Source of the DNA: Gracilimonas sp.
Lineage (GTDB): Bacteria; Bacteroidota; Rhodothermia; Balneolales; Balneolaceae
Assembly (NCBI RefSeq): GCF_017641085.1
Contig: NZ_JAEPPI010000002.1
Span: 558,001 to 622,000, forward strand
DNA length: 64,000 nucleotides
Reading direction: 5' to 3'
Every line of letters begins with the position of its first letter. Position 1 is the stretch's first letter. Positions 194 through 18,721 of this stretch are shown here, piece by piece. A program made the position numbers and the translations under genes. Under the pieces are notes generated by a model. That model searched no databases. It was given only the letters and a program-made list of their open reading frames with translations, and was not told where the DNA came from.

Positions 194-232
194 AACTGCA
201 TAACTGGATGAATTCCGTCCAGTAATGCAGTT
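194..232. promoter_or_regulatory. Large inverted repeat, probable AbiEi operator
   Basis: The left arm AACTGCATAACTGGA (194-208) and right arm TCCAGTAATGCAGTT (218-232) are complementary at 14 of 15 positions around a 9-nt centre. The right arm covers the ATG at 225. A further ATGCAGTT lies at 122-129, inside a looser repeat GGATAAG (113-119)/CTTATCC (145-151). AbiEi antitoxins are known to repress their own operon by binding inverted repeats upstream, so this is the natural candidate operator. Bases 56-224 otherwise show nothing I can assign. Confidence 0.6.
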
Positions 233-1052
233 GAAAACTAAAATGAACAACGGGAATACATACGAATACCTTAGCCGCTACTTAGACCAACTCCGAAGCA
301 GAGGGCGATATACATTTACTGGGGATGATGTCATTTCGGAGTTTAATTTATCTGATGAGGCTTATCAAAAAGTTATTCAGCGCCTTTCCGATAAAGATCG
401 AATATCAAGGCTCCGACAAAATTTTTACCTAATCATTCCTCCGGAATACGCATCCCGCCAAACCCTACCCTTGGGTTATTTCATTGATGATCTGATGAAA
501 TTCCTGGAAAGGGATTATTATGTGGGGCTACTAACCGCAGCCATGTATCATGGAGCTGCTCATCAACAACCACAAACACAATTCGTGGTCTCAGAGCCTC
601 CTTATTTAAGACCAATCAAAAACAGACAGCAATCTATTGTCTTTTGCCTGAAAAAAGGCTGGAATGCTGATTTTGTAACTCAACAGAAAACAGATGCGGG
701 ATATATTAATATTTCAAATCCGGCATTAACGGCTCTTGACTTGGTCTCTTACTCAGACCGTATTGGTGGTATAAACCGAGCCGCCACGGTTCTGGCTGAA
801 TTAGTCATTGAGCTGAAACCAGACACAATGGCAAAAGCAGCAGAGGATTTCTCTCAAACCACAACCCTTCAACGTTTAGGTTATTTGTTTGATGAGGTTC
901 TTCAGGAAACCACACTGGCTGATGCCATATATAGTGTATTAGACAACCGGAATTACTATCCAACTCAGCTAAATCCCAAAACAGACACCGAAAACCAAAA
1001 AGCACCTAACCGTTGGAAAATTATCCCAAATATGAATGTAGAGGTTGACTAA
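225..1052 (+). CDS. abiEi: AbiEi-family antitoxin / transcriptional repressor
   Basis: This 275-aa protein has an N-terminal winged-helix region (about residues 15-75) and the family-typical stretch YVGLLTAAMYHGAAHQQ (about 98-114), followed by a mixed C-terminal domain. It matches the AbiEi antitoxins of type IV toxin-antitoxin systems. In characterised AbiE systems the antitoxin represses the operon and counters AbiEii without a stable protein complex. The toxin ATG follows the stop after 2 nt. The first ATG lies inside the operator; the ATG at 243 is an alternative start and neither has a clear ribosome binding site. Confidence 0.85.
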   Translation: MQLKTKMNNGNTYEYLSRYLDQLRSRGRYTFTGDDVISEFNLSDEAYQKVIQRLSDKDRISRLRQNFYLIIPPEYASRQTLPLGYFIDDLMKFLERDYYVGLLTAAMYHGAAHQQPQTQFVVSEPPYLRPIKNRQQSIVFCLKKGWNADFVTQQKTDAGYINISNPALTALDLVSYSDRIGGINRAATVLAELVIELKPDTMAKAAEDFSQTTTLQRLGYLFDEVLQETTLADAIYSVLDNRNYYPTQLNPKTDTENQKAPNRWKIIPNMNVEVD

Positions 1053-1054
1053 CT

Positions 1055-1852
1055 ATGATCCCTAAAGCATACATAGATGCATGGCGGTCTGTAGCTCCAT
1101 GGACTGAATCTTCACAGGTTGAACAGGATTTGGTTATTTCCAGGGCCGTTGTGGAGATCTTTTCCAATGATTTTTTGAAGGAAAACCTCGCATTCCGAGG
1201 TGGTACAGCGTTGCACAAACTCTACCTGCATCCTCAGGCGAGGTATTCGGAAGATATTGATTTAGTACAGCTACATTCTGGGCCAGCCAAACCTATGCTT
1301 GAAGCTATTCGGGATCAGTTAATTTTCCTGGGTGGGAAAGATGACCGGCAAGTAAAACTGAATGAGCATAACTGCACGGTCTACTATCAATTTGAAACGG
1401 AAATGAGTCCCCCGCCAAGCATGCGGGTAAAAATTGAAATCAATACACGAGAACATTTCAATGTGTTGGGGTTACAGAAAGAAACTTTTTCCGTAGATAA
1501 TCCCTGGTATCAGGGAAGTGCGGAAGTAACGACTTATCAGCCAGAAGAGCTTTTAGGTACCAAACTCAGAGCATTATACCAGCGAAAAAAAGGCCGGGAT
1601 TTATTCGACCTCCACTATGCTTTGGAAAACCTTGATGTAGATATAGACAAAATAATTGAGTGTTTTCATGCCTACATGGAACAGGAAGACAACAAAGCCC
1701 CTACAGCCCGTGAATTCGAGCTTAATCTGGAAGAGAAGATGCAAGATGATGAGTTTACTGGGGATATTATGGCTTTACTCAGACCTGAAATTGAATATGA
1801 TCAGGTTAAAGCATATCAACAACTTCAGAAATTAATTATACAACGGCTTTAA
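1055..1852 (+). CDS. abiEii: AbiEii-family nucleotidyltransferase toxin
   Basis: This 265-aa protein carries the nucleotidyltransferase signature FRGGTALHKLY (about residues 46-56) with the acidic pair SEDIDLV (about 64-70). The conserved late motif TKLRALYQRKKGRDLFDL is also present. These are the hallmarks of the DUF1814/AbiEii family. In studied homologues the toxin arrests growth, and AbiE was first described as a phage abortive-infection system. All key residues look intact. The gene is translationally close to its antitoxin and opens a run of defence genes. Confidence 0.88.
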   Translation: MIPKAYIDAWRSVAPWTESSQVEQDLVISRAVVEIFSNDFLKENLAFRGGTALHKLYLHPQARYSEDIDLVQLHSGPAKPMLEAIRDQLIFLGGKDDRQVKLNEHNCTVYYQFETEMSPPPSMRVKIEINTREHFNVLGLQKETFSVDNPWYQGSAEVTTYQPEELLGTKLRALYQRKKGRDLFDLHYALENLDVDIDKIIECFHAYMEQEDNKAPTAREFELNLEEKMQDDEFTGDIMALLRPEIEYDQVKAYQQLQKLIIQRL

Positions 1853-1885: not shown

Positions 1886-3595
1886 ATGTGGCTACGTGAT
1901 CTTAGTATCAAGAATTTTAGAAAAATAGAATCTTTAAATGTCACTTTTCAGAAAGGTCTTTCAATATTAGTTGGTGAGAATAATTCCGGTAAGACAGCAA
2001 TTATTGATGCCTTAAGACTTATTTTATTTCCAAGTAGGGATTACGATTCTTTAAAAATTTCAGAAGATGACTTTAGATACGGTACAGATTTCAAACCAAT
2101 CGAAATTTCTTGCCGATTCACAGATCTTAGTGAGATTGATGAAGTTCATTTCAGTGAATGTCTTGTAGATATTGGTGATGGAAAGTTTGAAATACAGATT
2201 AATCTAAGAATTGAATTTAGTACTATTTCTAATAGGCCTAATTTTAAAATGTGGGGAGGGGAGACTGAGGGAGGCTCATTGCCAAGTAATCATTATGATA
2301 GGCTTGAAACGGTGTATTTGCAGCCGCTTCGAGACCCTGAAAAAGGACTTAGACCAAGTCAATATTCACAAATTGCTCGATTGCTTTCAACTATAACATC
2401 TGAAGACAAAGAAGCCGACTATGAAGAGATAGTTAAGACTGCTAATCAGGCTATTCGCAGTCTAGATCAAGTCGAAAGTGCTGTTGGAAGTATAAACAAT
2501 AAATTGAAGGAAATAACCGGTGATGAGCTATCACAAAAAACGGATCTAATATTTAATGATCCTAATTTCCGACGCATAATTGCTGGCCTTCAACCTGAGA
2601 TAGATAACCTACCGTTCTCTTTGAATGGGCTGGGATATAACAATCTAATTTTTACAGCAACAACTTTAGCTACATTAAGTAGTGGAGATCAATTTTCACA
2701 TAAATCAATTCTGATTGAGGAACCAGAAGCTCATCTCCATCCTCAACTTCAGGTACTATTGCTCAGGCATTTAGCTAAGGTAACTGAGAAGGATGAAATC
2801 GACGTTCAAGTTATTGCAAGCACGCATTCTCCAATACTTGCAAGTCAGGCACCGATAGATTCGGTCATATCAGTTTCCGATATAGATGGAATAGTATCAA
2901 CAATTTGTGTAAATAAAATTAAAATTGAAGATAAGACAAAAAAGAAATTACAACGATATTTGGATGCTACAAGAGGAGAATTATTTTTTGCCAGACGCAT
3001 ATTGATGGTTGAAGGAATTTCTGAGGCATTATTGCTCCCTATTTTAACTCAATTTGCTGGTGGCGATCTGAAAGAATCAGCAATAACAGTAATTAATACT
3101 CAGGGTATTAATTTTGATGCTTTTTTATCCTTGTTCGTTCAGAATGAAAAAAATATGCCAATAGCAATATTAACAGATGGTGATGCAGATGAAATTGGTG
3201 GAGATATTTCAGCAACAGCAAAAGGGTTAAAAGAAAAGGAAGAAGTAGTACACAATCTAAGTGTAGAATTGCCAATAATTACATTTGAACATGAATTAGC
3301 CAGATCTGAAGTAATGCTATCTCATTTGATTAACGCTTTCAAGGAAGTTCACCCGCAACTTGGAGTGACCCTGGAACAAGAATTAAATAGTATAAATGGT
3401 ATTGACCAAAAAGCTAATCGGTTTCTTGAGGTATTCAAAGAGAAAAAAGTTTCAAAGGGTAAGTTTGCACAGGAGCTTGCTTATATTCTTGGTAAAACTG
3501 AATTAGGACCTGAGTTTGTACCTGAGTATATAAAAAAAGCTCTTCGACATTTGGGAGTAATAAAAAACGAGGTGAATGATGCGCAACCTTCATAA
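1886..3595 (+). CDS. gajA: Gabija GajA: OLD-family ATPase with TOPRIM nuclease domain
   Basis: The 569-aa protein starts with an ABC-type ATPase: Walker A GENNSGKT (30-37) and Walker B/signature ILIEEPEAHLHPQ (about 274-286). It ends in a TOPRIM domain with VEG (about 373-375) and DGDAD (about 430-434). Length and order match GajA (near 580 aa). In Gabija, GajA is a sequence-specific endonuclease that forms a supramolecular complex with GajB and is activated on nucleotide depletion. A strong AAGGGGG lies just before the ATG. The gene overlaps gajB by 20 nt. The upstream AbiE genes are close but probably a separate unit. Confidence 0.9.
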   Translation: MWLRDLSIKNFRKIESLNVTFQKGLSILVGENNSGKTAIIDALRLILFPSRDYDSLKISEDDFRYGTDFKPIEISCRFTDLSEIDEVHFSECLVDIGDGKFEIQINLRIEFSTISNRPNFKMWGGETEGGSLPSNHYDRLETVYLQPLRDPEKGLRPSQYSQIARLLSTITSEDKEADYEEIVKTANQAIRSLDQVESAVGSINNKLKEITGDELSQKTDLIFNDPNFRRIIAGLQPEIDNLPFSLNGLGYNNLIFTATTLATLSSGDQFSHKSILIEEPEAHLHPQLQVLLLRHLAKVTEKDEIDVQVIASTHSPILASQAPIDSVISVSDIDGIVSTICVNKIKIEDKTKKKLQRYLDATRGELFFARRILMVEGISEALLLPILTQFAGGDLKESAITVINTQGINFDAFLSLFVQNEKNMPIAILTDGDADEIGGDISATAKGLKEKEEVVHNLSVELPIITFEHELARSEVMLSHLINAFKEVHPQLGVTLEQELNSINGIDQKANRFLEVFKEKKVSKGKFAQELAYILGKTELGPEFVPEYIKKALRHLGVIKNEVNDAQPS

Positions 3596-5360
3596 CCTAA
3601 AAGAAAAAATAATTGCTCAATCCCCAACAGAAGAGCAGACGGAAGCAATTTTTTCAGAAGACGAGGAATTCCTTCTACGAGCGGCCCCGGGTAGTGGAAA
3701 AACATGGACTTCTTGCAGAAGATTTATCTGGCGTGGAGCACAATGGGATTATGAATCGGGTGGAATAGCATTAATGTCTTTTACCAATGTTGCTATTCGT
3801 GAATTTAAAAATGCAACCGCAAGGGTTGGGCGTGGTGATTTACTATCTGATCCAAATTATGTTGGCACCTTTGATTCCTTTGTTGAGCGGTTCATTATTA
3901 CTCCATTTGGACACTTAATTTCAGATACAACTAAACGCCCGAAGCTATTTAGTTCACCTCGACCAAGTGATTGGGATGACCCGAATTTAAAAGTATGGGT
4001 TAAGACGAATGGGAGAAATATTCCAAAGCATGCTTGGCAGGTAATTCCTTTCCCTGAAGATGATAAAATTAAATTCAAAACATCTAACTTTTATAATGAT
4101 CAGGTTTTACCCTTTGAGCAAGCAAAAAACGCTGTTTTAAGCTTGTTGGGATCGGGATATTACACTCATGCCCAAAGAGCGTTCTGGGGTGTAATTTTAC
4201 TATCCAAAAGACCACATATTGCATCATTACTGGCAAGAAGGTTTCCAGTAATTATTGTTGATGAAGCTCAAGATACAAATGCATGGTTAATTGTATTATT
4301 AAATCTAATACGAGAGAAAGGTTCGAAAATTACATTAGTGGGCGATCCGGACCAATGTATTTATGAGTTTAGTATGGCAGATGCTACATCACTCCTAAAC
4401 TTAAAGGACAAGTGGGAAATTCCAGAGAAACCGTTAAGCAAGTCTTTTAGATGTAATGATCAAATAGCTTCAGTAGTCAAGGTGATTGGTGGTAATAAAG
4501 GTTTTACTGGTTATGGTCCAAGCAACCGGGCAGAATATAAAGCATATGTTTACTGTGAATCTTCTGATGATTATCAAGGAAGTGTAGACACCTTTCAGGG
4601 GAAATTGAAAAGTTTAAAATTAGATAGGGATAAATCAGCAATTGTTTGCAGAGGTCATAAAGAACTTGAGCTAATGAGGGGAAAGGTAAATTATAAGGAT
4701 TTGCAAGGAAGTGCTAAACGACTGGCTAAGGCTGCATTTCTTAGAGATTCTATGAATGATTTCCATGAAGCATCAAAGACTGTTGAGAAAGTTCTTAGGG
4801 AGATTACTGGGGATGACCCTTATTGGGAAATTATTAATGAAAAACCGGATTCAATTGAAGCACGACACATGGCACTATGTATATGGAGATTTGTTAAGGA
4901 TGGGAATAAACTTCCATCAGTTAATTTGGTTGGGAGTAATTGGATATCCACTGTTAAAAAAAATATTGAAGACTTAATTGTTGAAATTGGTCTAAATCCT
5001 ATATCCGGACTTGGGTATAAAATAAATAAAAGAGGTTTATCGAATGATCAACTGAGCTTACCATTATTTGTGGTACTAAATGAATTTCCAAAAATAAGAA
5101 CAGAGACAATACATAAAGTTAAAGGTGAAAGTATTGATGCAGTTATGACCGTTGGGAGTACTAGATTTTGGAACTCAGTTGTGGATGCAATTGAAAATGG
5201 TGAAAATACAGAAGATCGACGGTTAGCATATGTGGCTATGACAAGAGCTCGACATTTTCTTTTTGTTTCGTTACCTGAAAACCATTTTAATACCCATTCT
5301 AAAAAATGGGTTAAATGGGGATTTGAAGTTATTGACTCCTCTGAAACTATTATCAATTGA
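3576..5360 (+). CDS. gajB: Gabija GajB: UvrD/Rep-like superfamily 1 helicase
   Basis: This 594-aa protein has a Q-like motif (TEEQTEAI), Walker A AAPGSGKTWT, motif II IIVDEAQDTNAW, motif III LVGDPDQCIYEF, a motif near HKVKGES and motif VI AYVAMTRARHFLFV. These are all in the order of UvrD-type helicases. It overlaps the 3' end of gajA, with GAGGTG just before ATGATG, as expected for translational coupling. It is somewhat longer than the typical GajB of about 500 aa. Known GajB proteins sense DNA ends and act with GajA. Confidence 0.9.
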   Translation: MMRNLHNLKEKIIAQSPTEEQTEAIFSEDEEFLLRAAPGSGKTWTSCRRFIWRGAQWDYESGGIALMSFTNVAIREFKNATARVGRGDLLSDPNYVGTFDSFVERFIITPFGHLISDTTKRPKLFSSPRPSDWDDPNLKVWVKTNGRNIPKHAWQVIPFPEDDKIKFKTSNFYNDQVLPFEQAKNAVLSLLGSGYYTHAQRAFWGVILLSKRPHIASLLARRFPVIIVDEAQDTNAWLIVLLNLIREKGSKITLVGDPDQCIYEFSMADATSLLNLKDKWEIPEKPLSKSFRCNDQIASVVKVIGGNKGFTGYGPSNRAEYKAYVYCESSDDYQGSVDTFQGKLKSLKLDRDKSAIVCRGHKELELMRGKVNYKDLQGSAKRLAKAAFLRDSMNDFHEASKTVEKVLREITGDDPYWEIINEKPDSIEARHMALCIWRFVKDGNKLPSVNLVGSNWISTVKKNIEDLIVEIGLNPISGLGYKINKRGLSNDQLSLPLFVVLNEFPKIRTETIHKVKGESIDAVMTVGSTRFWNSVVDAIENGENTEDRRLAYVAMTRARHFLFVSLPENHFNTHSKKWVKWGFEVIDSSETIIN

Positions 5361-5809: not shown

Positions 5810-5872
5810 TCTAAATAGACTGTAATAATTACCCATACTTATTCAGAAATAACCTTGCTTTTCTTATTTTTT

Positions 5873-5920
5873 ACAGTAAGCTTTACTGCATAATATCGAT
5901 AGTTGATATAAGCTTACTGT
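5873..5920. promoter_or_regulatory. Nested inverted repeats upstream of the integrase
   Basis: ACAGTAAGCT (5873-5882) and AGCTTACTGT (5911-5920) are perfect 10-bp inverted copies; the right arm ends 1 nt before the integrase ATG. Nested inside is CAGTAA-GCT-TTACTG (5874-5888). The 10-mer TTTACTGCAT (5882-5891) recurs near 22.1 kb. These could be integrase or excisionase binding sites, or an operator for the integrase gene. Confidence 0.55.
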
Positions 5921-5921
5921 T

Positions 5922-7154
5922 ATGACCACATTATCATACTACTTAAAAAAGCGGAAGAACAAGAATGAACACCCTTTATATCTCAGAGTTACCCATGACA
6001 GGGAATCAAGGTATATACGACTGGATATTGGTCTGGAGAAAGAGCATTGGAATGAGGAAAAAGAAATAGTTCGTAAATCGCACCCCCACTACGAAAAGAT
6101 CAATCGATATCTCAAAGTCAAGAAGCTAGACTCGGACACTCTAGTTTTAGAGCTTAAACAATTCAAGCCAGAAGCTGATATAGACTTAATGCAAAAAGTT
6201 CTTGAAACCGGTTCGTTAGATGGAGTTAAAAAATCCAGTAGAGTAGAGTTTTTAAGCTTTGCCGAAGAGTTAAGAGCTGGTTTCAAAGCTCAAGGTTCAC
6301 TGCAAAGATATAAGAACTATGGAACCGTACTTAATAAGCTCAAGGGTTTTTGGCCAAAGAATAAACTCTACTTCACTGATATGGATGTCCAGTTTCTCAG
6401 ACGCTTTGAAACCCACCTCATCTCGAAACATGGAAATGCAGTGAATACGGTGGGTAACAATATGAAGAAGATTAAAAGGGTGTTTAATGTTGCTATAAAT
6501 GAAGGAAAGATACCAGCTGACCTATATCCATTTCGGATATATAAAATCCCAAGTGAACCTGTCACAAAATCAAAGCTTTCTCAAAATGAAATAAGTGCCA
6601 TTGAATGCCTTGATCTTAAGCCAGGTACTAGAATATTCGATTCCAAAAACATTTTTCTATTTGCCTATTACTGCCGGGGTATGCGCTTTGGAGATGCAGT
6701 AACACTCAAGTGGAGTTCAATAAAAGAGGGTTATCTGGATTATGAAATGAGGAAAACAGGTAAGCGAATGTATTTAAAACTTACCGGCAAGGCGCTAAGG
6801 ATAATAAAGCAATACAGAGGAACGACCAAACCTAATCCCAAGCACTTTGTATTCCCATTATTAGATAATCGTAAAGATTACAGTGATGAAAATTTTCTTT
6901 CCGCACAGATTTCCTCTAAAACAGCCATAGTAAATAAGTACCTGAAAGAAATTAAAGGTCAGACGGATATAAATGAGAATATCACTACCCACATAGCTCG
7001 TCACTCCTTTGCCCAGTTAGCAAATAAGAAAAAGGTAAGGTTGTTGGAGATAAAAGAAATGCTGGGACACTCAAGTGTAGAAACAACCACCAAATACCTA
7101 GAGTCTCTTGGCAATGATCATTTAGACAAAACGGTAGAGGGCTTATTCAACTAA
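5922..7154 (+). CDS. Tyrosine site-specific recombinase (Bacteroidota-type integrase)
   Basis: The 410-aa protein has an N-terminal arm-binding domain (about 1-90), a SAM-like core-binding domain (about 105-200) and a catalytic domain. The catalytic residues appear intact: R255 in GMRFGD, H357-x-x-R360 in HIARHSF, H383 in LGHSS and Y392 in TTTKYLE. It should integrate and excise the element carrying it. The ATG is 1 nt after an inverted-repeat arm, so it may be autoregulated. It lies about 15.6 kb from the tRNA-Arg, which fits an integrase at the tRNA-distal end, though this is inference. Confidence 0.93.
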   Translation: MTTLSYYLKKRKNKNEHPLYLRVTHDRESRYIRLDIGLEKEHWNEEKEIVRKSHPHYEKINRYLKVKKLDSDTLVLELKQFKPEADIDLMQKVLETGSLDGVKKSSRVEFLSFAEELRAGFKAQGSLQRYKNYGTVLNKLKGFWPKNKLYFTDMDVQFLRRFETHLISKHGNAVNTVGNNMKKIKRVFNVAINEGKIPADLYPFRIYKIPSEPVTKSKLSQNEISAIECLDLKPGTRIFDSKNIFLFAYYCRGMRFGDAVTLKWSSIKEGYLDYEMRKTGKRMYLKLTGKALRIIKQYRGTTKPNPKHFVFPLLDNRKDYSDENFLSAQISSKTAIVNKYLKEIKGQTDINENITTHIARHSFAQLANKKKVRLLEIKEMLGHSSVETTTKYLESLGNDHLDKTVEGLFN

Positions 7155-7176: not shown

Positions 7177-8115
7177 ATGCAAACATCTACAAGCAGAAGT
7201 CAAACAGATAGATTTGACCCATACTTAATAAGAGAAATAACCCATGGGTATGGAGTGATAAAGAATGAGAATGATGACCCTATGTATGAAGCTTATAAAA
7301 GAGGGTATGAGATGCTCTATAAAGATTTACAGAAAACAAACGCGGAGAAAAGTCCATCTAGTTTTCATGTTATTCTAGAAAAAGCGGGGAATAACTTAAT
7401 AATACTTCACCAAAGGGCAGTTGCGAATTGCTTTCAAGTCATGAACTTCTCAAATAATTTTCTAAATATTATTAAAAATGAAGCAATGAAGACTAACACC
7501 GATGCAGGTGATTTTCTGAAATTTGTACACATAACATTGGATGAGGCTTTAAGAAGTAACAGCCTCCGAGAGGGAATTGAACTAATAAGAATACATTATT
7601 CTTTTATCTGTATGTGCTTACCAAATGATCTAGTAATAGAAGATTTTGAAGATATTAATACACTAGTTTTCGATGGCCTAAAAATAATCGAGGAGAAGCT
7701 GGTTGAAGCTGCAGAGAAATACAAAGTATTCCAGGGATTAAGTAATGCTCATAGTTATGCTCTTATCAAGGGACACCTTATTACTTTTGAAGAGTACAGA
7801 GCTAAAGCAAGTAATCTTAGTAGTGGTTTGAAATGGTCTGTCCAGCAAGATAAAACGCTGAGAGATTTAGTAAATTATGGTCATACACTTAAGACAGCCT
7901 GTAAGATTAAATTCATCAATTTAATCGGGGAGAAGGATAAAGGTGCTAAAGAGGCTTACTATGTCATCTATGACGAACTAAAAGAACTTGGAATTGATCC
8001 TGATGAAAGTTGTTACTTACCTGATTCTCCAAAAAATATGGTAGACCGGTCTAATCGTTTCCAAAAGAAAAGAATGGAAGAATTAAAACAAATAGCGAGA
8101 AAACCATCTCGTTAA
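7177..8115 (+). CDS. Unknown 312-aa protein of the integrase module
   Basis: I do not recognise a family. The product is soluble, mostly helical in appearance, lysine/glutamate rich, and shows no signal peptide or membrane segment. A ladder of amphipathic stretches runs from about residue 60 to 300. It starts 22 nt after the integrase stop, and an ACAGAAAAT box lies just before the start (7166-7174). Its place between integrase and excisionase-like HTH genes suggests an element maintenance or regulatory role, but nothing in the sequence shows one. Confidence 0.7.
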   Translation: MQTSTSRSQTDRFDPYLIREITHGYGVIKNENDDPMYEAYKRGYEMLYKDLQKTNAEKSPSSFHVILEKAGNNLIILHQRAVANCFQVMNFSNNFLNIIKNEAMKTNTDAGDFLKFVHITLDEALRSNSLREGIELIRIHYSFICMCLPNDLVIEDFEDINTLVFDGLKIIEEKLVEAAEKYKVFQGLSNAHSYALIKGHLITFEEYRAKASNLSSGLKWSVQQDKTLRDLVNYGHTLKTACKIKFINLIGEKDKGAKEAYYVIYDELKELGIDPDESCYLPDSPKNMVDRSNRFQKKRMEELKQIARKPSR

Positions 8116-8190: not shown

Positions 8191-8475
8191 ATGAAGAATT
8201 CAATAACCATACAGTTGGATGAAGATACCCTAAAAGAGATTACTTCAGCTGTAAAAGAAGCCGTTAAAGAGCAACTCCCAATCTTGGCCGACTTCAAAAA
8301 AGATTGGCTGACGACTGAGGAAGTCATGGAAATGATGAATGTTTCCAGAAGAACCGTTCAGAACTATAGAGACGAAGGTAAAATACCGTATACCAAAGAG
8401 GGGCGAAAAATCTTATATCCCAGGCAAGGAATCGAGGAGTTCCTGCAAGATAATATGATAAAAGCCTACCGGTAA
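8191..8475 (+). CDS. Excisionase-like helix-turn-helix protein
   Basis: The 94-aa product has a C-terminal winged helix-turn-helix of the MerR/excisionase type: WLTTEEVMEMMNVSRRTVQ then NYRDEGKIPYTKEGRKI (about residues 36-72). Proteins of this kind sit beside integrases in Bacteroidota elements and act as recombination directionality factors or regulators. The next gene, the primase-helicase, begins 6 nt after the stop, so the two are probably co-translated. Whether it is an excisionase or a replication/transcription regulator cannot be told from sequence. Confidence 0.8.
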   Translation: MKNSITIQLDEDTLKEITSAVKEAVKEQLPILADFKKDWLTTEEVMEMMNVSRRTVQNYRDEGKIPYTKEGRKILYPRQGIEEFLQDNMIKAYR

Positions 8476-8481: not shown

Positions 8482-10704
8482 ATGGGTAATCTTTCAAAAG
8501 CATTAGAGCTGATAGATAACAACTTTAAGCTTATTCCTTTGCATACACCTACTCCAAATGGCCAATGCTCTTGTGGGCAACGGTGTGACAGCCAAGGTAA
8601 GCATCCCAGAATACGCAATTGGACGGAAAAGGCAAGTAATGACCCCGGCCAAATTAGAGAATGGTGGCAGAAATGGCCGGAGGCAAATATTGGAATTGTT
8701 TGTGGCCGGTTATCCAACATTGTTGTTCTTGATATGGACCCACGGCATAAAGGTGAGGAGTCATTAGAAGCACTAGAACAAGAATTAGGTGTCTTCACGC
8801 AAACAACTACCATAATGACTGGTGGAGGAGGGAAGCATTTTTATTATCTCTATCCCGGAGAAAATAAAATAAGGAACAGCAGTGGAAAACTGGGAGAAGG
8901 CTTAGATGTGAAGACAGACGGTGGTTATGTGGTCGCACCAGGTAGTTTACATAAATCTGGCAGTAAATATGACTTTTTGTTTGGGTTGGAAGAAATCAAG
9001 CCTTTTCCAGACAAGTTGGTAAAGAGATTAAGGAACCATCGTAAAACTGAAAATAAACCGGACCTGAGTTCATCAGACCCAATATGGGAGGGTAAGCGCA
9101 ACGATACATTATTTAGTATTGGCGTAGAATTACGAAAAAGAGGGGCAAACCGAATACAAATTGAGTCCGAACTCATAGATATAAATAGACTACGCTGTAA
9201 TCCCCCTCTAGAAAATTCAGAAATTAAGTCTATTGCAAACAGTGCAAGTAAGGGGCCTGGTTCAGTTAATGGTAATTTTATGAAAAATGCAGAAAACGAA
9301 GAGTATGGTCTCTGGGATACCGAATTTGGTAATGCTAATGAGTTTGTAGAAAGGTTTACTGAGGAGGTTAGATATAACATAGACGGAAAGCATTGGCTGG
9401 TCTGGGATGGAGCAAGATGGAAAAAAGACCCAAATGAACTCATTGTCTCAGGATATGCTAAGAAATTGATAGAGAAAATGTACGAGGAGGCCTCCAAAAT
9501 CAAGGATACAGAATTAAGAGACAAAAAAATTCAACACATTAAAAAATCAGCTAAAGGAACAGGAATAAATGCCATTCTTACGATTGCAAGAACAGACCTA
9601 CGGATTAGAATTACAGAAAATCAGCTCGATCAACGGCTGATGATGATTACCCTGGAAAACCTTACTTATGATCTGGACTCTGGAAAAAAATTAAAGCATA
9701 ATCCCAATCATTTTATCACAAAAAAACTTCCGTTTTCTTTTGATTCAAAAGCAAGGGGGCAAAGGTGGAGAGAGTTTGTTCTACAGATAATGAATGGGGA
9801 TGAGGAAATGGCTTCCTTCCTACAAGAGGCGGTTGGTTATTCACTAACCGGACTTACGTCAGAGCAATGCCTTTTCTTTTTATATGGCCAGGGGAAAAAC
9901 GGTAAAACCACATTTGTGGAAGTTTTAATGAAATTGTTTGATGAATATGCTTGCAAAGCAGAAAATCGAATGATTATGGATGTTGGTAATTCATCAGCTA
10001 TCCCTAACGATGTAGCCAGGTTGAATGGACACAGATTTGTGCTTTTTTCTGAAATTCAAGAAGGTCGAAGGCTTGATGAGGCAAAGGTTAAGAATTTGAC
10101 CGGTGGAGATACCATAACGGCTCGTTTTCTTCGTCAGGAATTTTTTGATTTCGAACCCTCTCATACCATTTGGCTATTTGGCAATCACAAACCATTAATT
10201 TCCGGAACAGATGATGGCATTTGGAGAAGACTTCGGCTGATCAAGTTTGCCCGGCAATTTTCAGAAAAAGAAAGAGATCGGCATCTGCGGGAGAAGTTGT
10301 ATAAGGAATTACCAGGAATTTTTAACTGGGCCCTCGAGGGACTTGAAAAATGGAAGGGTAATGGTAGAAGGTTAGCCATTCCTGAAAAAGTAAAAAGGGA
10401 AACCCTGAATTATCGAGGAGAAATGGATGTGCTCACTTCGTTTATTCAGGAAACGTGTAAGGAGGGTGTGACTTATTCGTGTAGCAATAAAGAATTGCGA
10501 TCTGCTTATGAGCTGTGGTGCTCGGAGAATGGATTACAGGTGATGAGTAACAAAACCATCAACCCGAAACTAGAGCAGAAAGGGTTCAAAAAGTATTATT
10601 CCAATGGCCGAGTACATTGGAAAGGCATAACCCCAGTCTTAGGAAACGAAGTAGAGGAAGTAGAGGATGTAGAGGAAAAATCAGATTATCAGCTAAAAAT
10701 TTAA
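8482..10704 (+). CDS. Primase-helicase (prim-pol N-terminus, D5/P4-type helicase C-terminus)
   Basis: The 740-aa protein begins with a bifunctional primase/polymerase-like domain (about 1-190; IGIVCGRLSNIVVLDMD, GGGGKHFYY, GEGLDVKTDGGYVVAPGS). A primase C-terminal linker follows, then a D5_N region and an SF3 helicase with Walker A YGQGKNGKTT (about 467-476) and Walker B-like RFVLFSEIQEG. The layout is that of phage- and satellite-type replication proteins. The 3' end encodes VEEVEDVEE from three 9-nt units that form half of an iteron array. Its presence argues that the element can replicate autonomously after excision. Confidence 0.9.
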   Translation: MGNLSKALELIDNNFKLIPLHTPTPNGQCSCGQRCDSQGKHPRIRNWTEKASNDPGQIREWWQKWPEANIGIVCGRLSNIVVLDMDPRHKGEESLEALEQELGVFTQTTTIMTGGGGKHFYYLYPGENKIRNSSGKLGEGLDVKTDGGYVVAPGSLHKSGSKYDFLFGLEEIKPFPDKLVKRLRNHRKTENKPDLSSSDPIWEGKRNDTLFSIGVELRKRGANRIQIESELIDINRLRCNPPLENSEIKSIANSASKGPGSVNGNFMKNAENEEYGLWDTEFGNANEFVERFTEEVRYNIDGKHWLVWDGARWKKDPNELIVSGYAKKLIEKMYEEASKIKDTELRDKKIQHIKKSAKGTGINAILTIARTDLRIRITENQLDQRLMMITLENLTYDLDSGKKLKHNPNHFITKKLPFSFDSKARGQRWREFVLQIMNGDEEMASFLQEAVGYSLTGLTSEQCLFFLYGQGKNGKTTFVEVLMKLFDEYACKAENRMIMDVGNSSAIPNDVARLNGHRFVLFSEIQEGRRLDEAKVKNLTGGDTITARFLRQEFFDFEPSHTIWLFGNHKPLISGTDDGIWRRLRLIKFARQFSEKERDRHLREKLYKELPGIFNWALEGLEKWKGNGRRLAIPEKVKRETLNYRGEMDVLTSFIQETCKEGVTYSCSNKELRSAYELWCSENGLQVMSNKTINPKLEQKGFKKYYSNGRVHWKGITPVLGNEVEEVEDVEEKSDYQLKI

Positions 10705-10739
10705 TACTGGAAGAAGTCTACATGCTCTACTTGGTCTAC
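10651..10739. repeat. Two sets of 9-bp-period iterons flanking an A+T-rich stretch (candidate origin)
   Basis: GTAGA begins at 10651, 10660 and 10669; its complement TCTAC begins at 10717, 10726 and 10735. Both sets have an exact 9-bp period and face each other across an A+T-rich spacer of about 43 nt. The first set is in the 3' end of the primase gene, the second is non-coding. SaPI-type satellites are known to have an origin just 3' of their rep gene, made of two short iteron sets around A+T-rich DNA, so this is a good origin candidate. No experiment is implied. Confidence 0.6.
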
Positions 10740-10772: not shown

Positions 10773-11132
10773 ATGAACAATGCACCCAAGGTATGTGTCA
10801 CATGTGGAAAAGACATATCATTTAAGAGATGTGATGCAAAATACTGTAGTTCGCGATGTCGCATGCAAAAAAAGAGAGAAAAACAGAAAATTGAATTGGT
10901 TGAAAAACTGAAAAATATTTGCTCCTTACTGCCCAATCATACCGTTAAGGGACCAAAGGGTGAAATTTTCATAAAATCATGTAAGTGCTTTAAAGAGAAT
11001 CATAAATTTATCAGTATTTCAGATATACAGAATTACAGTTTTCATAAAATTGAACAGTGTGTGAAAGAAAAACAGAAAATTTTAAACATAGGAGGCCTGG
11101 TGAAAGGAATAGGGGATCTTATATCCCGGTAG
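10773..11132 (+). CDS. Small zinc-ribbon protein of the element core
   Basis: The 119-aa product opens with CVTCGKDI and CDAKYCSSRCRMQ, a four-cysteine (CxxC...CxxxC-like) zinc-binding pattern, followed by a basic helix and an unremarkable C-terminal half. Similar short zinc-ribbon proteins often follow primase genes in Bacteroidota integrative elements. The gene lies downstream of the candidate origin and is the last rightward gene of the core. Two ACAGAAAAT boxes are inside it (10883, 11072). The function is unknown; DNA binding is plausible. Confidence 0.7.
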   Translation: MNNAPKVCVTCGKDISFKRCDAKYCSSRCRMQKKREKQKIELVEKLKNICSLLPNHTVKGPKGEIFIKSCKCFKENHKFISISDIQNYSFHKIEQCVKEKQKILNIGGLVKGIGDLISR

Positions 11133-11409: not shown

Positions 11410-12180
11410 TTACTTATATCCCTCCAGCTTATGCTTTCGCTTCTGCCAGTCCGGGAGCACCTTTTTCAGTAAATCATAAAACTTGCTGTCATGCTGAGGG
11501 TGCTTGATGTGACAAAGCTCATGAATTATCACATAATCGATACAGTAAACCGGATGTTTAATTAAATCGGGATTTAGTAAGATATTACCAGAGGCCGTGA
11601 AGCTTCCCCAGCGTTTATCCATGTGATACACTTTGAGCTCGTTAGGTTTTCCAATACCATACTTCTGAACCATATCTAAACAATCCTGGAGTCGGTCTCT
11701 AAACTTTTCCTCGGCTTTTTCCCGGTACCAGGCATCCAATTGAGCTTTTACATGCTTTGGGTTCCCCTTCTGTTTAGAATGAATAAAGAAGTAGCCTCTC
11801 TTTAGCTTGACCGATTCTTCTTCATTTTCAGGTTGTAATACCTTGAGCCTGTATTGTTTGCCTAAATATCGATGAGTTTCACCACTTACATATTCAAACT
11901 CTATCTGTTCATTCTCGAACCGGTCAAAATGTTTGATCTGTTTTGTGATCCACCGTCTCCGGTGTCTCACTTTCTCATAAATTTTATCAAGTGAGCTTTC
12001 CTCTGGTGCCGTAACCCAAACCGTTTGATCGGGATATACAGCAATTTCCAATGTTTCACGACTTGAGTAGCTCAGATTAAATTGAATAGACGTGGTGCCA
12101 TATTCAATCGTCTGAATATTATCGTGTACTAAAGGACTGCTTTGACTTGATGATGGTTTCTGCAATGCGCTCGATGACAT
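11410..12180 (-). CDS. YgjP/SprT-like zinc metallopeptidase (DUF45), last gene of the type I R-M operon
   Basis: The roughly 256-aa protein carries the zinc motif HELCHIKHPQHD near its C-terminus and the family stretch DKRWGSFTASGNILLNP. DUF45/YgjP-like metallopeptidases are regular companions of type I restriction operons, but their role there is not settled. The gene overlaps the 3' end of hsdR by about 60 nt in another frame. The ATG at 12180 is preceded by an in-frame TTG. The overlap indicates translational coupling to HsdR. Confidence 0.82.
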   Translation of the reverse strand: MSSSALQKPSSSQSSPLVHDNIQTIEYGTTSIQFNLSYSSRETLEIAVYPDQTVWVTAPEESSLDKIYEKVRHRRRWITKQIKHFDRFENEQIEFEYVSGETHRYLGKQYRLKVLQPENEEESVKLKRGYFFIHSKQKGNPKHVKAQLDAWYREKAEEKFRDRLQDCLDMVQKYGIGKPNELKVYHMDKRWGSFTASGNILLNPDLIKHPVYCIDYVIIHELCHIKHPQHDSKFYDLLKKVLPDWQKRKHKLEGYK

Positions 12181-15100
12181 CAAAATCTCGTTTAAGGTCT
12201 AATTCTCTGAATAATTCAATCATATAGTCTTCAATAGCAATGAACATCTGATTTTTGACATCGGGATTAGTTTCCCAATCCACAATTGTCAGTTTTTCCA
12301 TTATTTTATCCAATTCAAGACCAGCTTTAGTGTATAATTCTTCTCGTTCTTCTTCATCAACAGGTAGGTAAGCACCGTCAAACTTTTCTTCCAGCTCTTC
12401 TTTAACGCTATTGTAGAAGGACCGTGCTACCGGACGTTCTTTAAGTTCATTTGGAGTGCCATCCCAAATTCCTTGCTTCACACCCTGATTAATATCTTTC
12501 ACTTTTTCCAGGTACTCTTTCTCCGATATTCGGTCGTGTAAAAACTTCTGAATAGTCTCTTCAATTAAGTCAGAGAATTTACGATATAATGCCGGGTCTT
12601 CATCCATACGCTCCTGGATTACCTTCTTAGTCTTACTGGCTATTTCATCCGCTTTAGAGGCATCGGAGCGTTCTTTTTGCTTATTCTGCATCTCAAAGAA
12701 GTTGTCGCTGAATATATCAACCGGATCAACGATTTGATCAATGCCTTCAGTGCCTACATAGGAATCTATGAGCTTCTGCACCCGATCTTCATATTCTCGG
12801 TGATCAATGGCCTCACCGTATCGGATTCGCACAGACCTGCGAAGGTTTTCAAAAAACTTAAGGTCTTTCTTATAGGTGATGATCTTGGATTCATCGATAT
12901 AATCAAACAGCTTGTCTGCAGAAAAAGCGGCCTGAAGGGTGCGAGCAAAGTTTGAGAGTTTCTCATAAAATTCATCTCTCAAGTCATCATGCCTAAGATG
13001 TCGCTCCATTGCCTCATTGTCAGAAGTATCCTCACAGTCCTCAAATAAATCCCAGAGTTCTTGATGGAGTTTGGGTAGGGTTTCCGCAACTTCTTTGATT
13101 GGAGTTACCATTCCTTGTAAGTCTTTCTGCTCAAAACCGCTGAGCGCCGAGTACGTGTTAATAGCATCGGTTAAGGTTCCCAAAATCCCTACATAGTCAA
13201 TAATGAACCCATAATCTTTTCCTTCAAAAAGGCGGTTTACCCGTGCAATTGCCTGAAGCAAGTTGTGCTCTTCCAAATAGCGAGCCATATAAAGCACCGT
13301 ATTATTTGGAGCATCAAAACCGGTTAAGAGTTTGTAGACAACAATCACCAGCTCCACTTCCCGGCTGTCTGATTTAAATAGGTTAACCAGGCTCTTTTCG
13401 TAGTCTTCTTTGTTACTAAACCGATCCATCATTTGTTGCCAGAATATCTGAACTTCATCATTTGGATCGTCATAGGTATCATCATGACCTTCCCTCGTAT
13501 CAGGGGGGGAGATGACAAGTTCTGCATTGATTTGGCCTCGTTCCTTAAAATAGCGGTAATAGCGTACAGCGGTTTTGCGGTCCGGTACGGCAAGCTGTGC
13601 TTTATACTTGGTGTCTTTGAGGTTTTTCAAGAAATGATCGGTTACATCACGGGCAATTTCTTCAATGACTAACTGAGCAGTTAGCACTTTATTCAGCGTA
13701 GAATATCTAAGTTTATAATCAGCAACCTGCTCCTCAGACATATCTTTCATGTCCCGCTCAAATTCCCGATCCAGTTTTTCTTTCCAGGTGTCCAGCTTTG
13801 CAGCACGACCTTCATAGATGATAGGAACCACAGCTCCATCTTCTACGGCCTGATCCATAGAATAGGAATCAATAATACCTCCAAATTTATTGGCAGTATT
13901 CTTTTCATCTTTCATGAGAGGAGTTCCGGTAAATCCCAGGTAACAGGCATTGGGCAGAATCTTTTTCATTTGTGCATGCAGCAATCCGTACTGGGTACGG
14001 TGAGATTCATCTATGAGCACAAAGATGTTGCGAGACTTATTGATTAGATTTTTTTGGTTTAGAGCTGCCTTAAACTTGTTGATAATGGTAGATACGTTTT
14101 CAGCGCCCGGATCTTTAATAAGCTTAGCCAAATGTGTACCACTTCTGGCTTTGGTGATACTTTTACCACAGCTCTTAAATGTTTTATAGAGCTGATCATC
14201 CAAATCTGTGCGGTCTGTAACCAGCAAAATACGCTGGGAGGGAATGTCATCCGCGACGGCCAGGTTTTTAGACATAAACACCATTGTAATCGATTTTCCG
14301 CTACCCTGAGTATGCCAGATAACACCGCCTTTTCTACTACCGTCTGAATCTGTTTGACGGACCCGGCTCATCATTCGTTTAACCCCGAAATACTGCTGAT
14401 ATCGAGCAATCTTACGGGTGTTATTATCAAACACAGTGAAGTTGCGAGTTAGCTCAAGTAGTCGGTCAGGTTTGCATAGGCTGTATAGGTTTAAATCCTG
14501 GGTAGTGGGTTGCCGGTCTTTAGAAGCTGTGAGTGGCTTTTCATAGTAATGGCTTCGAAGTCTTGTCTTCCAATCTTCATTGACATCTGGTTGAGATACC
14601 AACTCCTTCACGACTTTCTCTATGTCTTCTTCTTCTCTCCAGATCGACCAGAACTTCTTACTTGTTCCGGTAGCTGCATACGATAACTCATTCACGCAGG
14701 AAGCAATTAACAACTGGGTAAAATGAAAGAAGCCAGGCACTTCTTCCTTCCCTTGATTGCGCAGATGTTGAGAGATGGCCTCGTCTAAAGCATGTTTTTT
14801 ATCTCTACGCTTATTTTCAATAGCCACAAAGGGGATACCGTTCACAAATAGGACGATATCAACTCGTCGAACCTGTGTTTTCCCTTTGATCTCGAATTCA
14901 TCTGCGACGTGATAAACATTATTCTCGGGATGTTCCCAGTCTACATAGTTGAACGGAAAGCTTTTTTTATCTCCTTTAACGACCTGTTCATAACTTTTCC
15001 CCAAAGTGAGTAGGTCATAAATCTTTTCATTTGTTTTGACCAGTCCTTCATCCAGTTGTTGTTGTAGATCATAAGCCGCCCGGCTAACAGCAGATTCCGG

Positions 15101-15307
15101 GAAGGGCAGGGTTTCCCCTTTGTATTCTATTTTGTTAATCTTGGATAGCTGCTCTTCCATGATATCCGTGAGCACAAACCGAGTCAGTAACCCATCTCGC
15201 ATTTCCAGTGCTTTCTCTGGCGAGATGTAGGTATATCCCATCTGTTGCAACAAGCGAATAGCTGGCAGCTGAGAGTCTTTGTCTTCAAGGTATGTTGATT
15301 GACTCAT
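12119..15307 (-). CDS. hsdR: Type I restriction enzyme, R (motor/nuclease) subunit
   Basis: The 1062-aa protein has a PD-(D/E)xK nuclease (D150, E164-x-K166 in VDIVLFVNGIPFVAIENK) and SF2 translocase motifs, including Walker A TQGSGKS (334-340) and DEAD-like LIDESHRTQYG. These are followed by the C-terminal helical region that docks to HsdM. It should translocate and cleave unmodified DNA with HsdM2S. The length is normal and no frame break is seen. It is separated from hsdS by five other genes, an unusual spacing described under findings. Confidence 0.95.
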   Translation of the reverse strand: MSQSTYLEDKDSQLPAIRLLQQMGYTYISPEKALEMRDGLLTRFVLTDIMEEQLSKINKIEYKGETLPFPESAVSRAAYDLQQQLDEGLVKTNEKIYDLLTLGKSYEQVVKGDKKSFPFNYVDWEHPENNVYHVADEFEIKGKTQVRRVDIVLFVNGIPFVAIENKRRDKKHALDEAISQHLRNQGKEEVPGFFHFTQLLIASCVNELSYAATGTSKKFWSIWREEEDIEKVVKELVSQPDVNEDWKTRLRSHYYEKPLTASKDRQPTTQDLNLYSLCKPDRLLELTRNFTVFDNNTRKIARYQQYFGVKRMMSRVRQTDSDGSRKGGVIWHTQGSGKSITMVFMSKNLAVADDIPSQRILLVTDRTDLDDQLYKTFKSCGKSITKARSGTHLAKLIKDPGAENVSTIINKFKAALNQKNLINKSRNIFVLIDESHRTQYGLLHAQMKKILPNACYLGFTGTPLMKDEKNTANKFGGIIDSYSMDQAVEDGAVVPIIYEGRAAKLDTWKEKLDREFERDMKDMSEEQVADYKLRYSTLNKVLTAQLVIEEIARDVTDHFLKNLKDTKYKAQLAVPDRKTAVRYYRYFKERGQINAELVISPPDTREGHDDTYDDPNDEVQIFWQQMMDRFSNKEDYEKSLVNLFKSDSREVELVIVVYKLLTGFDAPNNTVLYMARYLEEHNLLQAIARVNRLFEGKDYGFIIDYVGILGTLTDAINTYSALSGFEQKDLQGMVTPIKEVAETLPKLHQELWDLFEDCEDTSDNEAMERHLRHDDLRDEFYEKLSNFARTLQAAFSADKLFDYIDESKIITYKKDLKFFENLRRSVRIRYGEAIDHREYEDRVQKLIDSYVGTEGIDQIVDPVDIFSDNFFEMQNKQKERSDASKADEIASKTKKVIQERMDEDPALYRKFSDLIEETIQKFLHDRISEKEYLEKVKDINQGVKQGIWDGTPNELKERPVARSFYNSVKEELEEKFDGAYLPVDEEEREELYTKAGLELDKIMEKLTIVDWETNPDVKNQMFIAIEDYMIELFRELDLKRDFDVIERIAETIIKSKQSFSTR

Positions 15308-15311: not shown

Positions 15312-15794
15312 TTAATTTTTTGGTTTTATAAACAGTTGTTCACCTTCACTCAGGTAATAGGAGTCTTTATTAGTGGTGGTATTCTCCTTCTCCCACAATT
15401 CTTCTAGTGTATCGAGCTTCTGATACCAATAGTTCATCCCCGCTTGCCAAGAACTCCATATTTTTGGATCAATCCTGCCCTTTGAGTGCCAAAGTCTTTC
15501 CTCAGCACATAAGTTTAGATAATCATTGAGCTTGCTATACAGCTCTGGCTTATTCTCTCTAAGAAAGTTTAGGTCAACATTCTGATTATTGCTTTCAAGG
15601 GTCTTGATATCATGTAACTTATCATTTAATTCATCATACCAATCATTAAACCGTATTAAAAGGGTATGATTAAATTCATCTTCAGCCAATTTATGTTGGC
15701 TTTTTGAATACTTATATGTGACCCAAAGTCCAGCCCCACCAAGTATTATACCTTGAATTCCAAACTTTATTATCTCCAACCAAAATTCACTCAT
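15312..15794 (-). CDS. Single-TM protein between the CBASS-like pair and hsdR
   Basis: The 160-aa product has an N-terminal membrane segment (about residues 9-28, IKFGIQGIILGGAGLWVTYK) and a soluble part with FNDWYDELNDKL and YLNLCAEERLWHSKGRID. The soluble part looks like the helical DUF4760-type domains found in small membrane proteins of unknown role. It ends 4 nt before the hsdR start, so the two are probably coupled, while 78 nt separate it from the CD-NTase gene. I cannot assign a function; it could belong to either neighbour or be a separate effector. Confidence 0.65.
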   Translation of the reverse strand: MSEFWLEIIKFGIQGIILGGAGLWVTYKYSKSQHKLAEDEFNHTLLIRFNDWYDELNDKLHDIKTLESNNQNVDLNFLRENKPELYSKLNDYLNLCAEERLWHSKGRIDPKIWSSWQAGMNYWYQKLDTLEELWEKENTTTNKDSYYLSEGEQLFIKPKN

Positions 15795-15872
15795 AAGTTG
15801 CTCCTATTACTACAAATCTATTTATTTAATTTGTACTCCTAATTCGATTGATTTAAACCAATCCATATGGTA

Positions 15873-16691
15873 TCAGTTTAGGGGTGGAAATATTTTTTTT
15901 AGTATGTCTACAGCATCACTTTCATGTCCTTTCTTTTTAAACCGTTTAATCACATCCACACGATCTTTGAGACGCCCAATTTTTTCTCTTTTCCAGTCAG
16001 GGTCATTCCATGAATTGGTAATGCCATTAACAAATTCATAGAAATAATCCTCTAACTTTTCATTTGAGAAATATTGGTACATGAAAGGATTTACATAGAA
16101 GGCTTTAAGTATTTTTTCTTCTAAGTCAAATGACCTGAAAGGATACTTATTTACTGCATTCCAGTATTTAATCACCCTAATCAAAGGCTTGATGAGGGAA
16201 TTATTTTCTTTGTTTGATATTACAAGGTCAGTTTCAAGTTCCAATGGACTTGTTCTAACCCAGTCATCATAGGATGATGCTTTATCTGGTATTCTATATT
16301 CTGCTGCTCTCCAAAAACTTGATAGTGCTGGGACTAGCTCAAAATGGATATGACTTAAGGATAAAATGATAGTAGGATGTGATTGTTTTATCTCTGATCT
16401 GGAATATTTCATATCTGAAAACCTTCTCAGTCTATCCAAGTAGGTTTGAGGTTTGTAGTTGTCATCTTTAAAAACAATCATGTAATCTACATCAGAGTTG
16501 CTATCCATTTTTCTAGGCATCATTGTATCTCTATTTGAAGAGCCAAACTGGAAGTGATCAGTTAAATCAGATCCAAAATATTGATTCAATCTATCAGAAA
16601 GTGTCGAAATTGACCTCTTGATATTTTGCTTTTCCTCATCTCTGACGATAGCTTGGTTTGCAATACTCGTTAAATAACTATTGATGGTCAT
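15873..16691 (-). CDS. CD-NTase-like (SMODS-type) nucleotidyltransferase
   Basis: The 272-aa protein shows the CD-NTase active site: GSS (50-52), paired acids D67/D69 in NSDVDYMIVF, and a third acid E118 in HIHFELVPAL. CD-NTases make cyclic oligonucleotides that switch on CBASS effectors. Its start ATG overlaps the stop of the SLATT gene (TAATG), so the two are translationally coupled. An effector with two membrane helices encoded directly upstream fits a minimal CBASS-like system. The product nucleotide cannot be read from sequence. A Glu at the third position is the family norm for SLATT-linked members as I recall it. Confidence 0.85.
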   Translation of the reverse strand: MTINSYLTSIANQAIVRDEEKQNIKRSISTLSDRLNQYFGSDLTDHFQFGSSNRDTMMPRKMDSNSDVDYMIVFKDDNYKPQTYLDRLRRFSDMKYSRSEIKQSHPTIILSLSHIHFELVPALSSFWRAAEYRIPDKASSYDDWVRTSPLELETDLVISNKENNSLIKPLIRVIKYWNAVNKYPFRSFDLEEKILKAFYVNPFMYQYFSNEKLEDYFYEFVNGITNSWNDPDWKREKIGRLKDRVDVIKRFKKKGHESDAVDILKKIFPPLN

Positions 16692-17194
16692 TATTCTTTA
16701 GTATCTATTCGGTGTGTACTACGACCTTCATCTATGTCCTTCTTAGCTTGGTCATAGTCTTTTCTACTTATTGAAGGTGAGTTTTGATTTAAATCATCCC
16801 TTATTTCACCCAATTCTTTAATCCTTTTTTTGGCGAAATCTTCATCGAAACTATGCTCTAAGTCAATCTCCCGGAAAATTCTTGTTTGATTTCTGAGCTT
16901 TAAATATTGGTTACCAGCACTTTTGTGAAGCTCAGATTTTTCAGATGGTTTGAGAAAAGTCAATGTTGTAGTAAGTGCCGTGGAAACGGCTGCAAGAATA
17001 AGGGCAAGTACCGTTTCTTCTCCAATATATGCCCCTCCTGAAAGTGCAACTGCTAAAGCCGAAGGCAGTCCAATTGTATAGTGATACTTCTTCCACCGGT
17101 TACCTGCATTAAAGTGACTGCGGGCAGAATGATCAACATCTTCTTCAATGCGTGAAGCTTCATTAGCTACTTTTGTTTTTAAATCAGACATCAT
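16691..17194 (-). CDS. SLATT-domain two-TM protein, putative CBASS-like effector
   Basis: The 167-aa product has two adjacent membrane segments (about residues 38-59, YHYTIGLPSALAVALSGGAY, and 63-84, TVLALILAAVSTALTTTLTF). They are flanked by helical regions with RSHFNAGNRWKKYHY and LHKSAGNQYLKLRNQTRIF. This is the pattern of SLATT proteins, predicted pore-forming effectors tied to SMODS/CD-NTase enzymes. It precedes and overlaps the CD-NTase gene. The expected role is membrane disruption once the nucleotide signal is made; that is known for other TM effectors and inferred here. Confidence 0.8.
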   Translation of the reverse strand: MMSDLKTKVANEASRIEEDVDHSARSHFNAGNRWKKYHYTIGLPSALAVALSGGAYIGEETVLALILAAVSTALTTTLTFLKPSEKSELHKSAGNQYLKLRNQTRIFREIDLEHSFDEDFAKKRIKELGEIRDDLNQNSPSISRKDYDQAKKDIDEGRSTHRIDTKE

Positions 17195-17211
17195 GTTTCC
17201 TTTATGGATGT

Positions 17212-17496
17212 TTAAACGTTTAACCCTTTATTCCTCAAATAAAGCAGATGAGTAGCTGGTTCAATAACTTCTGTATCAATAAATGTTCTATATAGGCTTT
17301 CAGGATCATCAAAAGAGGCGTTCAATCGTCCGATATCAGTACCTCCGCGATTGACTAGTAGCCTGTTGTCTGTTACTCGAAAGCGATCTGTTGCATGTGG
17401 ATGAAACCAATACTCACCATCCTTTTCCATTCCAAATTCAATCAGGCTTTCTTCTTCGAAATTTATTAATAGGGTATATAACTCATCACTGGTCAT
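17212..17496 (-). CDS. Unknown 94-aa protein between Shedu and SLATT genes
   Basis: No family is recognised. The product is short, acidic, without membrane segments, and looks like one alpha/beta domain (EYWFHPHATDRFRVTDNRLL in the middle). It lies 14 nt after the Shedu stop and 17 nt before the SLATT start, in the same direction. It is therefore almost certainly translated as part of the defence operon. It could be an accessory, inhibitor or sensor for either neighbour. Confidence 0.65.
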   Translation of the reverse strand: MTSDELYTLLINFEEESLIEFGMEKDGEYWFHPHATDRFRVTDNRLLVNRGGTDIGRLNASFDDPESLYRTFIDTEVIEPATHLLYLRNKGLNV

Positions 17497-17510
17497 AGTC
17501 TTATATTTTT

Positions 17511-18701: not shown

Positions 18702-18721
18702 AGTACCTCTTAGTTTTTGAT

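Follow-up and report, generated by a model that had tools for sequence, protein, structure and literature searches.

Opposed GTAGA iterons at the 3' end of a primase-helicase gene: a probable replication origin in an integrative defence element

Introduction

A 64-kb stretch of a Gracilimonas sp. genome (hereafter ‘the window’) contains two short sets of repeats that face each other at the end of a gene encoding a D5-type primase-helicase, among several defence systems. The initial annotation of this locus suggested that the repeats look like a satellite replication origin, and that the DNA around them is either a phage satellite or a replicating integrative element carrying defence cargo. The questions raised are therefore what the repeats do, and to what kind of element they belong. 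Our analysis indicates that they very probably serve a ∼33-kb integrative defence element as its replication origin, to which that element's own PrimPol-D5 primase-helicase would bind.

Results

An integrative element with at least five defence systems

The repeats lie within an integrative element of ∼32.95 kb, the right 22.8 kb of which falls within the window (Table 1). Each end carries the same 15-bp repeat, AAGTACGCCCGGAAG, with the attL copy located at window coordinate −10189 (G000:C2 ∼547811). In a congener (G023) the corresponding site is unoccupied: the match to the tRNA gene and right flank starts exactly at the att point, and the element's left flank is found 1.2 kb from the right flank with the element absent. 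The att repeats at both ends and the empty site in a relative thus mark it as a tRNA-integrative element. Another genome, G022, contains a 28.6-kb version in the same tRNA-Arg gene.

The cargo includes at least five defence systems (AbiE, Gabija, type I restriction-modification (R-M), CBASS and Shedu). In the type I R-M region (15312–22085), hsdM has the full hsdS on one side and a separate hsdS of half length (193 aa) on the other, and the Shedu and CBASS genes sit between hsdS and hsdR as insertions. Among the genes in the left part of the element, outside the window, are those for SRAP, an IMS-type polymerase and an IS110 transposase; none was recognised as a phage structural or packaging gene. 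The domains of the integrase (PF13102, PF17293) suggest that the host is of Bacteroidota type. The 312-aa ORF that follows the integrase gene gave no usable family match in profile searches.

Table 1. Features of the element within the window
Feature	Position	Strand	Basis
AbiEi/AbiEii, cargo	225–1852	+	
Gabija GajA/GajB, cargo	1886–5360	+	
Near-palindrome TACAGTAAGCTTTACTGCA / TACAGTAAGCTTTACTGC, upstream of int	5872–5890	.	Common to all three elements
Tyrosine integrase (Arm-DNA-bind_5, Phage_int_SAM_5, Phage_integrase; PF13102, PF17293)	5922–7154	+	Pfam
312-aa ORF, always between int and HTH	7177–8115	+	Position kept in all three elements, 23–26% identity
HTH_17/excise-family small DNA-binding protein (AlpA/Xis-like)	8191–8475	+	Profile searches
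PrimPol-PriCT_1-D5_N/DUF5906 primase-helicase, 740 aa, presumed initiator	8482–10704	+	Pfam; TIGR01613 primase_Cterm; PDB relatives; fold
C-terminal domain of primase-helicase (aa 650–718), winged-helix-like, presumed iteron-binding	10429–10635	+	AlphaFold model, mean pLDDT 87.9
Left iteron array, GTAGA x3, 9-bp period	10651–10673	+	Inside 3' end of primase ORF; kept in L007 and L008
Spacer, 43 nt, A+T-rich, presumed melting site	10674–10716	.	72% A+T
Right iteron array, minus-strand GTAGA x3 (plus-strand TCTAC), 9-bp period	10717–10739	-	Kept in L007 and L008
119-aa CxxC...CxxxC protein directly 3' of iterons	10773–11132	+	Relatives in both other elements; weak phrog_6975
YgjP-like protease, cargo	11410–12183	-	
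Type I R-M, cargo: hsdR	12119–15307	-	
CBASS cyclase and 2TM effector, cargo	15873–17194	-	
Shedu, cargo	17511–18701	-	
Type I R-M, cargo: hsdS	18722–19981	-	
Type I R-M, cargo: hsdM	19978–21474	-	
Type I R-M, cargo: half hsdS	21504–22085	-	
attR, AAGTACGCCCGGAAG, tRNA-Arg 3' end, 15-bp repeat	22765–22779	.	att repeat comparison
tRNA-Arg (tcg), integration target	22767–22841	-	

Two mirrored triplets flank an A+T-rich spacer

The six units described in the initial annotation are all present where expected, with an exact 9-bp period in both sets (GTAGA at 10651, 10660 and 10669; TCTAC at 10717, 10726 and 10735), and the spacer between them is indeed A+T-rich (72%, compared with 57% in the 151 nt that precede it). 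The placement of the arrays at the 3' end of the primase-helicase gene also holds, except that they straddle the end of the ORF (stop codon at 10702–10704): the left set is still within it, where it encodes EVEEVEDVEE, whereas the right set falls just beyond it. A pattern of three GTAGR units and three opposed YCTAC units matches the window once and was absent from 100 shuffled sequences. A scan for any 5-mer at periods of 6–20 likewise identified this as the sole opposed 3x3 array in the 64 kb (0 of 60 shuffles), and looser 2x2 opposed arrays are expected only 0.2 times per 64 kb. By the looser 6-mer test applied in the survey below, the window itself is not significant.

GC skew lends no support to the origin reading and, if anything, counts against it, since its cumulative maximum is located near 11 kb, whereas a bidirectional origin in long use would give a minimum. 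The skew tracks the coding strand, however (which also flips there), and an integrated element need not bear the imprint of its own origin.

The arrays are conserved in related elements

Using the primase as query against 129 genomes of the order, we found two more copies of it (66% and 55% identical to the window primase), giving a close family of three members. Both relatives have opposed GTAGA/TCTAC triplets of 9-bp period at the 3' end of the primase gene: GTAGATGATGTAGAGGGTGTAGA ... CCTACACCCTCTACTTACTCTAC in L007 (genome G022), in which one unit reads CCTAC, and GTAGACCAAGTAGAGGGAGTAGA ... TCTACTCCCTCTACACCTTCTAC in L008 (genome G020), in which the arrays are positioned at and after the stop codon and are non-coding. 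The comparison of related elements that the initial annotation had proposed as a check therefore came out in its favour, as all three members of the close family carry the arrays.

The translation of the left array in the window might suggest that it is merely a Glu-Val-Glu codon repeat, arising from coding or by chance. The right array is non-coding, however, no such arrays arose in shuffled sequence, and the L008 arrays lie entirely outside the gene, indicating that selection acts on the DNA rather than the protein. The L008 arrangement refutes the coding-repeat reading, to which we assign practically no weight.

The same comparison bears on whether the repeats could be the arms of an RNA hairpin (a terminator, attenuator or mRNA stabiliser) that ends the primase transcript. 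The two arms form a 23-nt inverted repeat that is 87% complementary, with an RNA folding z of −5.4, and in the relatives the inner 4-nt spacers of one arm agree with those of the other (GGGT/GGGT and GGGA/GGGA), so that some secondary pairing role is possible. The outer spacers are unpaired, however. Across the three relatives the 5-mers are retained, whereas the arms match at only 10 of 20 spacer positions, which argues against a hairpin. Furthermore, there is no T run, no terminator was predicted at the site and no Rfam match was found, and a hairpin would leave unexplained both the 9-bp periodicity and the enrichment at primase genes over other 3' ends (described below). Given their direct 9-bp phasing and free spacers, the repeats are better explained as protein binding sites than as a stem, and we regard the hairpin as unlikely.

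All three elements share the same order of integrase, 312-aa ORF, HTH_17 gene, primase, arrays, small Cys-rich ORF and type I R-M, while the remaining defence genes vary. The AbiEi protein of the G022 element is 92% identical to that of the window, and in that element a frameshift has apparently split the AbiEii gene (L009/L010) into overlapping frames of 157 and 119 aa.

In addition to the near-palindrome upstream of the integrase gene, each of the three elements has an inverted repeat just before or over the start of the HTH gene; both are probably operators. The iterons might themselves act as an autoregulatory operator or incompatibility site, at which the primase or the HTH protein would control expression or copy number rather than initiation. 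Plasmid iteron sites often serve also as control sites, and the arrays are positioned upstream of the small Cys-rich gene as well as downstream of the primase. Such a role would not, however, call for mirrored triplets flanking an A+T-rich spacer; probable operators of other sequence are already found upstream of the integrase and HTH genes, and the origins of phage A2 and of the PICIs (see Discussion) are located at exactly this place. We consider a purely regulatory role very unlikely.

Several further repeats were observed in these genomes. A second element-specific repeat, AAAACAGAAAAT, occurs in the window at 10880, 11069 and 11391 (+) and at 11194 (−), which are all of its copies in the 64 kb, and its shorter word AACAGAAAAT is found also at 7165, between the 312-aa ORF and the integrase gene. 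At the matching place in the G020 element another word, AATGTATAAC, occurs in four copies. Beyond the G022 element, an intergenic region (L009:1386–1470) contains opposed TGTGA pairs with a 9-bp period, with no primase seen nearby.

Across 394 genomes of the phylum, the six-unit pattern was found in four, comprising the three elements and one genome (G450) whose match was rejected as a perfect hairpin within an unrelated 995-aa ORF. A second viral match to the pattern (L021) was rejected as a coding Pro-Val-Asp repeat. An IMG/VR phage contig (L020:210–305) has three opposed TGTAGG units per side with a 9-bp period near its end; it was left out of the counts because the primase side is cut off, the neighbouring replication gene having probably been lost at the contig end.

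The primase-helicase is modelled with a winged-helix-like tail

The protein encoded next to the arrays scores above cut-off for PF09250, PF08706, PF08708 and TIGR01613, corresponding to a PrimPol domain, a D5_N domain and a primase_Cterm region, and solved D5-family primases match it in both sequence and fold. The last 70 residues of its model run helix-strand-helix-helix-strand-strand, which is the order of a winged helix (pLDDT mostly 79–92 within this block), and residues 647–708 match Pox_D5 under the Pfam cut-off. A relative, C962R, is reported to possess a winged-helix tail that resembles the origin-binding domain of phage P4 (PMC10516667). A scan of contigs with the window primase as query returned distant, short contigs only.

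Opposed arrays are associated with D5-type primases

We surveyed 55 D5-type primases with less than 70% mutual identity, mostly from viral contigs (phages), scanning from −150 to +600 of each primase stop codon for a single 5-mer present in at least two copies per side, at one fixed period of 7–13 bp, with the two sets facing each other within 300 bp. Arrays of this kind were found at 23 of the 55 loci, compared with 7 of 542 control windows from the same loci (Fisher p = 1.5e-20); with the three relatives removed, the count was 20 of 52 (p = 8.6e-18). Shuffled windows were positive in 8 of 2200 cases. Since non-coding DNA might be repeat-rich in any case, the 3' ends of other genes were also tested, and gave 7 positives in 302, or 3 in 109 where non-coding DNA comes next (one of those three being the Thermaerobacter arrays discussed below). 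The period among the 23 positives was 9 bp in 13 and 10 bp in 6, and the A+T content of the spacer was usually above that of the locus. Examples include L137 (TAGGGATAG x3), L056 (CTGAGGTAACTGAG) and L058 (GTGACTTTAGTGAC).

The looser 6-mer test was positive at 19 of the 55 loci and in 5 of 299 control windows, and the two tests together identified 33 of the 55. A further 21 loci from the phylum of the window element, collected later, contributed four new cases in 20, three of them with a period of 9. The finding that would have counted against the initial annotation, an intact primase lacking repeats, is absent from the close family; the majority of distant D5 primases, however (32 of 55, of which 10 have an over-represented opposed 6-mer), lack a strict opposed array. 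The array rule is thus not universal; D5 primases do not all have opposed arrays, and origins can lie elsewhere.

Inverted repeats are frequent at recombination and transfer sites, and the arrays might accordingly represent an oriT, a resolution site or a packaging site. The att sites of this element, however, are located at the tRNA-Arg ends; none of the element proteins searched was recognised as a relaxase, resolvase or terminase; and the site follows the primase gene through phages, plasmids and islands. We judge this explanation highly improbable.

Discussion

The conservation of the arrays in three elements, together with their match to the layout of satellite origins, suggests that this defence island is probably able to copy itself on excision. 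By analogy with the biochemistry of its relatives, we infer the most likely course and timing of events. The integrase and the excisionase-like HTH protein would release the element as a circle, after which the C-terminal domain of the PrimPol-D5 protein would bind the three GTAGA iterons on each side. The mirror orientation of the two sets could allow two helicase hexamers to be loaded face to face. Once the A+T-rich spacer had melted, the D5 helicase rings would unwind outward on both sides, and synthesis primed by the fused PrimPol domain would be completed by the host polymerase and enzymes.

It is thus very likely that a chromosomal island carrying AbiE, Gabija, type I R-M, CBASS and Shedu has an origin of its own, which bears on how defence islands are amplified and moved. 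The survey further suggests that D5-type primases commonly have the layout once ascribed to PICIs alone, in a form whose repeats recur about once per helical turn while the word itself varies. Somewhat more speculatively, with the balance tipping slightly in favour, D5-family primase-helicases of phages, plasmids, satellites and defence islands would widely use origins in which opposed iterons of 5–6 nt recur at a 9–10-bp pitch at the gene's 3' end, and the island family to which this element belongs would be self-replicating and possibly helper-induced. If true, origins and initiator-iteron pairs could be read from sequence; origins could be predicted in many phages and islands, and the co-evolution of initiator and iteron could be studied.

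The two halves of the initial annotation fared differently. The origin is strongly supported by the relatives, the D5 survey and the PICI and SCCmec cases, and a replicating integrative element with defence cargo is well supported by the integrase, the HTH gene, the att sites, the empty site and the defence systems. We think it doubtful, though a real possibility, that the element is a phage satellite. It is large for one, and none of the element proteins searched was recognised by Pfam as a terminase, capsid, portal or helper-control protein (a PHROGs search covered seven window proteins).

Among the closest known systems are the PICIs, whose origins are found directly 3' of rep and consist of an A+T-rich region between two iteron sets; one such origin was cloned and tested for plasmid maintenance by its authors, who regarded the layout as shared by no other known bacterial replicon (PMC6092414). 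The SaPI-type origin just 3' of rep invoked in the initial annotation matches these published cases. In the window element the probable origin has the same position, with iteron sets flanking an A+T-rich region, a presumed primase-helicase initiator and arrays conserved among its relatives, and the element has the PICI gene set of int, xis/alpA and pri-rep. It differs from SaPIs and PICIs in its tRNA-Arg site, its size and its wealth of defence systems, and in having no recognised interference gene or master regulator, nor any packaging or capsid-redirecting gene (terS and the like) in the element proteins searched by Pfam, although terS itself is present in PICIs only sometimes (PMC6092414).

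The PICMI satellites of Vibrionaceae encode an integrase, an HTH_17-type AlpA, a DUF5906 primase and defence genes, including type I R-M beside the primase (PMC10803314), and the window element shares the first three as well as defence cargo. PICMIs are small, however, and fis is mandatory in their search model (PMC10803314), whereas the window element measures ∼33 kb, is integrated at tRNA-Arg and gave no fis-family match in the proteins searched. Because it has no recognised packaging or helper-control gene, we file the element neither as a PICI nor as a PICMI; its sequence points instead to a new family of defence islands whose probable origin resembles that of PICIs.

In SCCmec, the C-terminal domain of Cch2, a protein closest to SaPI5 Rep, binds a 23-bp region just 3' of its own gene that contains three 5-nt AAGTG iterons, and unwinding requires AAGTG (PMC7581432). 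The iterons would be spaced at 9 bp, since three 5-mers at that pitch occupy exactly 23 bp. Cch2 thus resembles the window protein in its D5/Primase_Cterm helicase and in the iteron triplet just 3' of its gene (PMC7581432), but has a single triplet rather than two opposed ones, and a separate polymerase-primase partner.

Phage A2 (AJ251789.2) has an annotated rep_origin directly 3' of a D5-type primase gene, with opposed repeats around an A+T-rich stretch; it is a phage genome, and differs in its iteron word (CGGGA) and in the 12-bp period of its best array. Finally, the Thermaerobacter plasmid NZ_CP037897.1 encodes a full-length PrimPol-D5 relative (36% identity), an integrase and an HTH protein, and carries opposed GTGAAC x3 / GTTCAC x3 arrays (GTGAACGAT-type) with a 9-bp period. 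These arrays, on a plasmid rather than a chromosome and 5' of the HTH-primase pair rather than 3' of the primase, are presumably that plasmid's origin.
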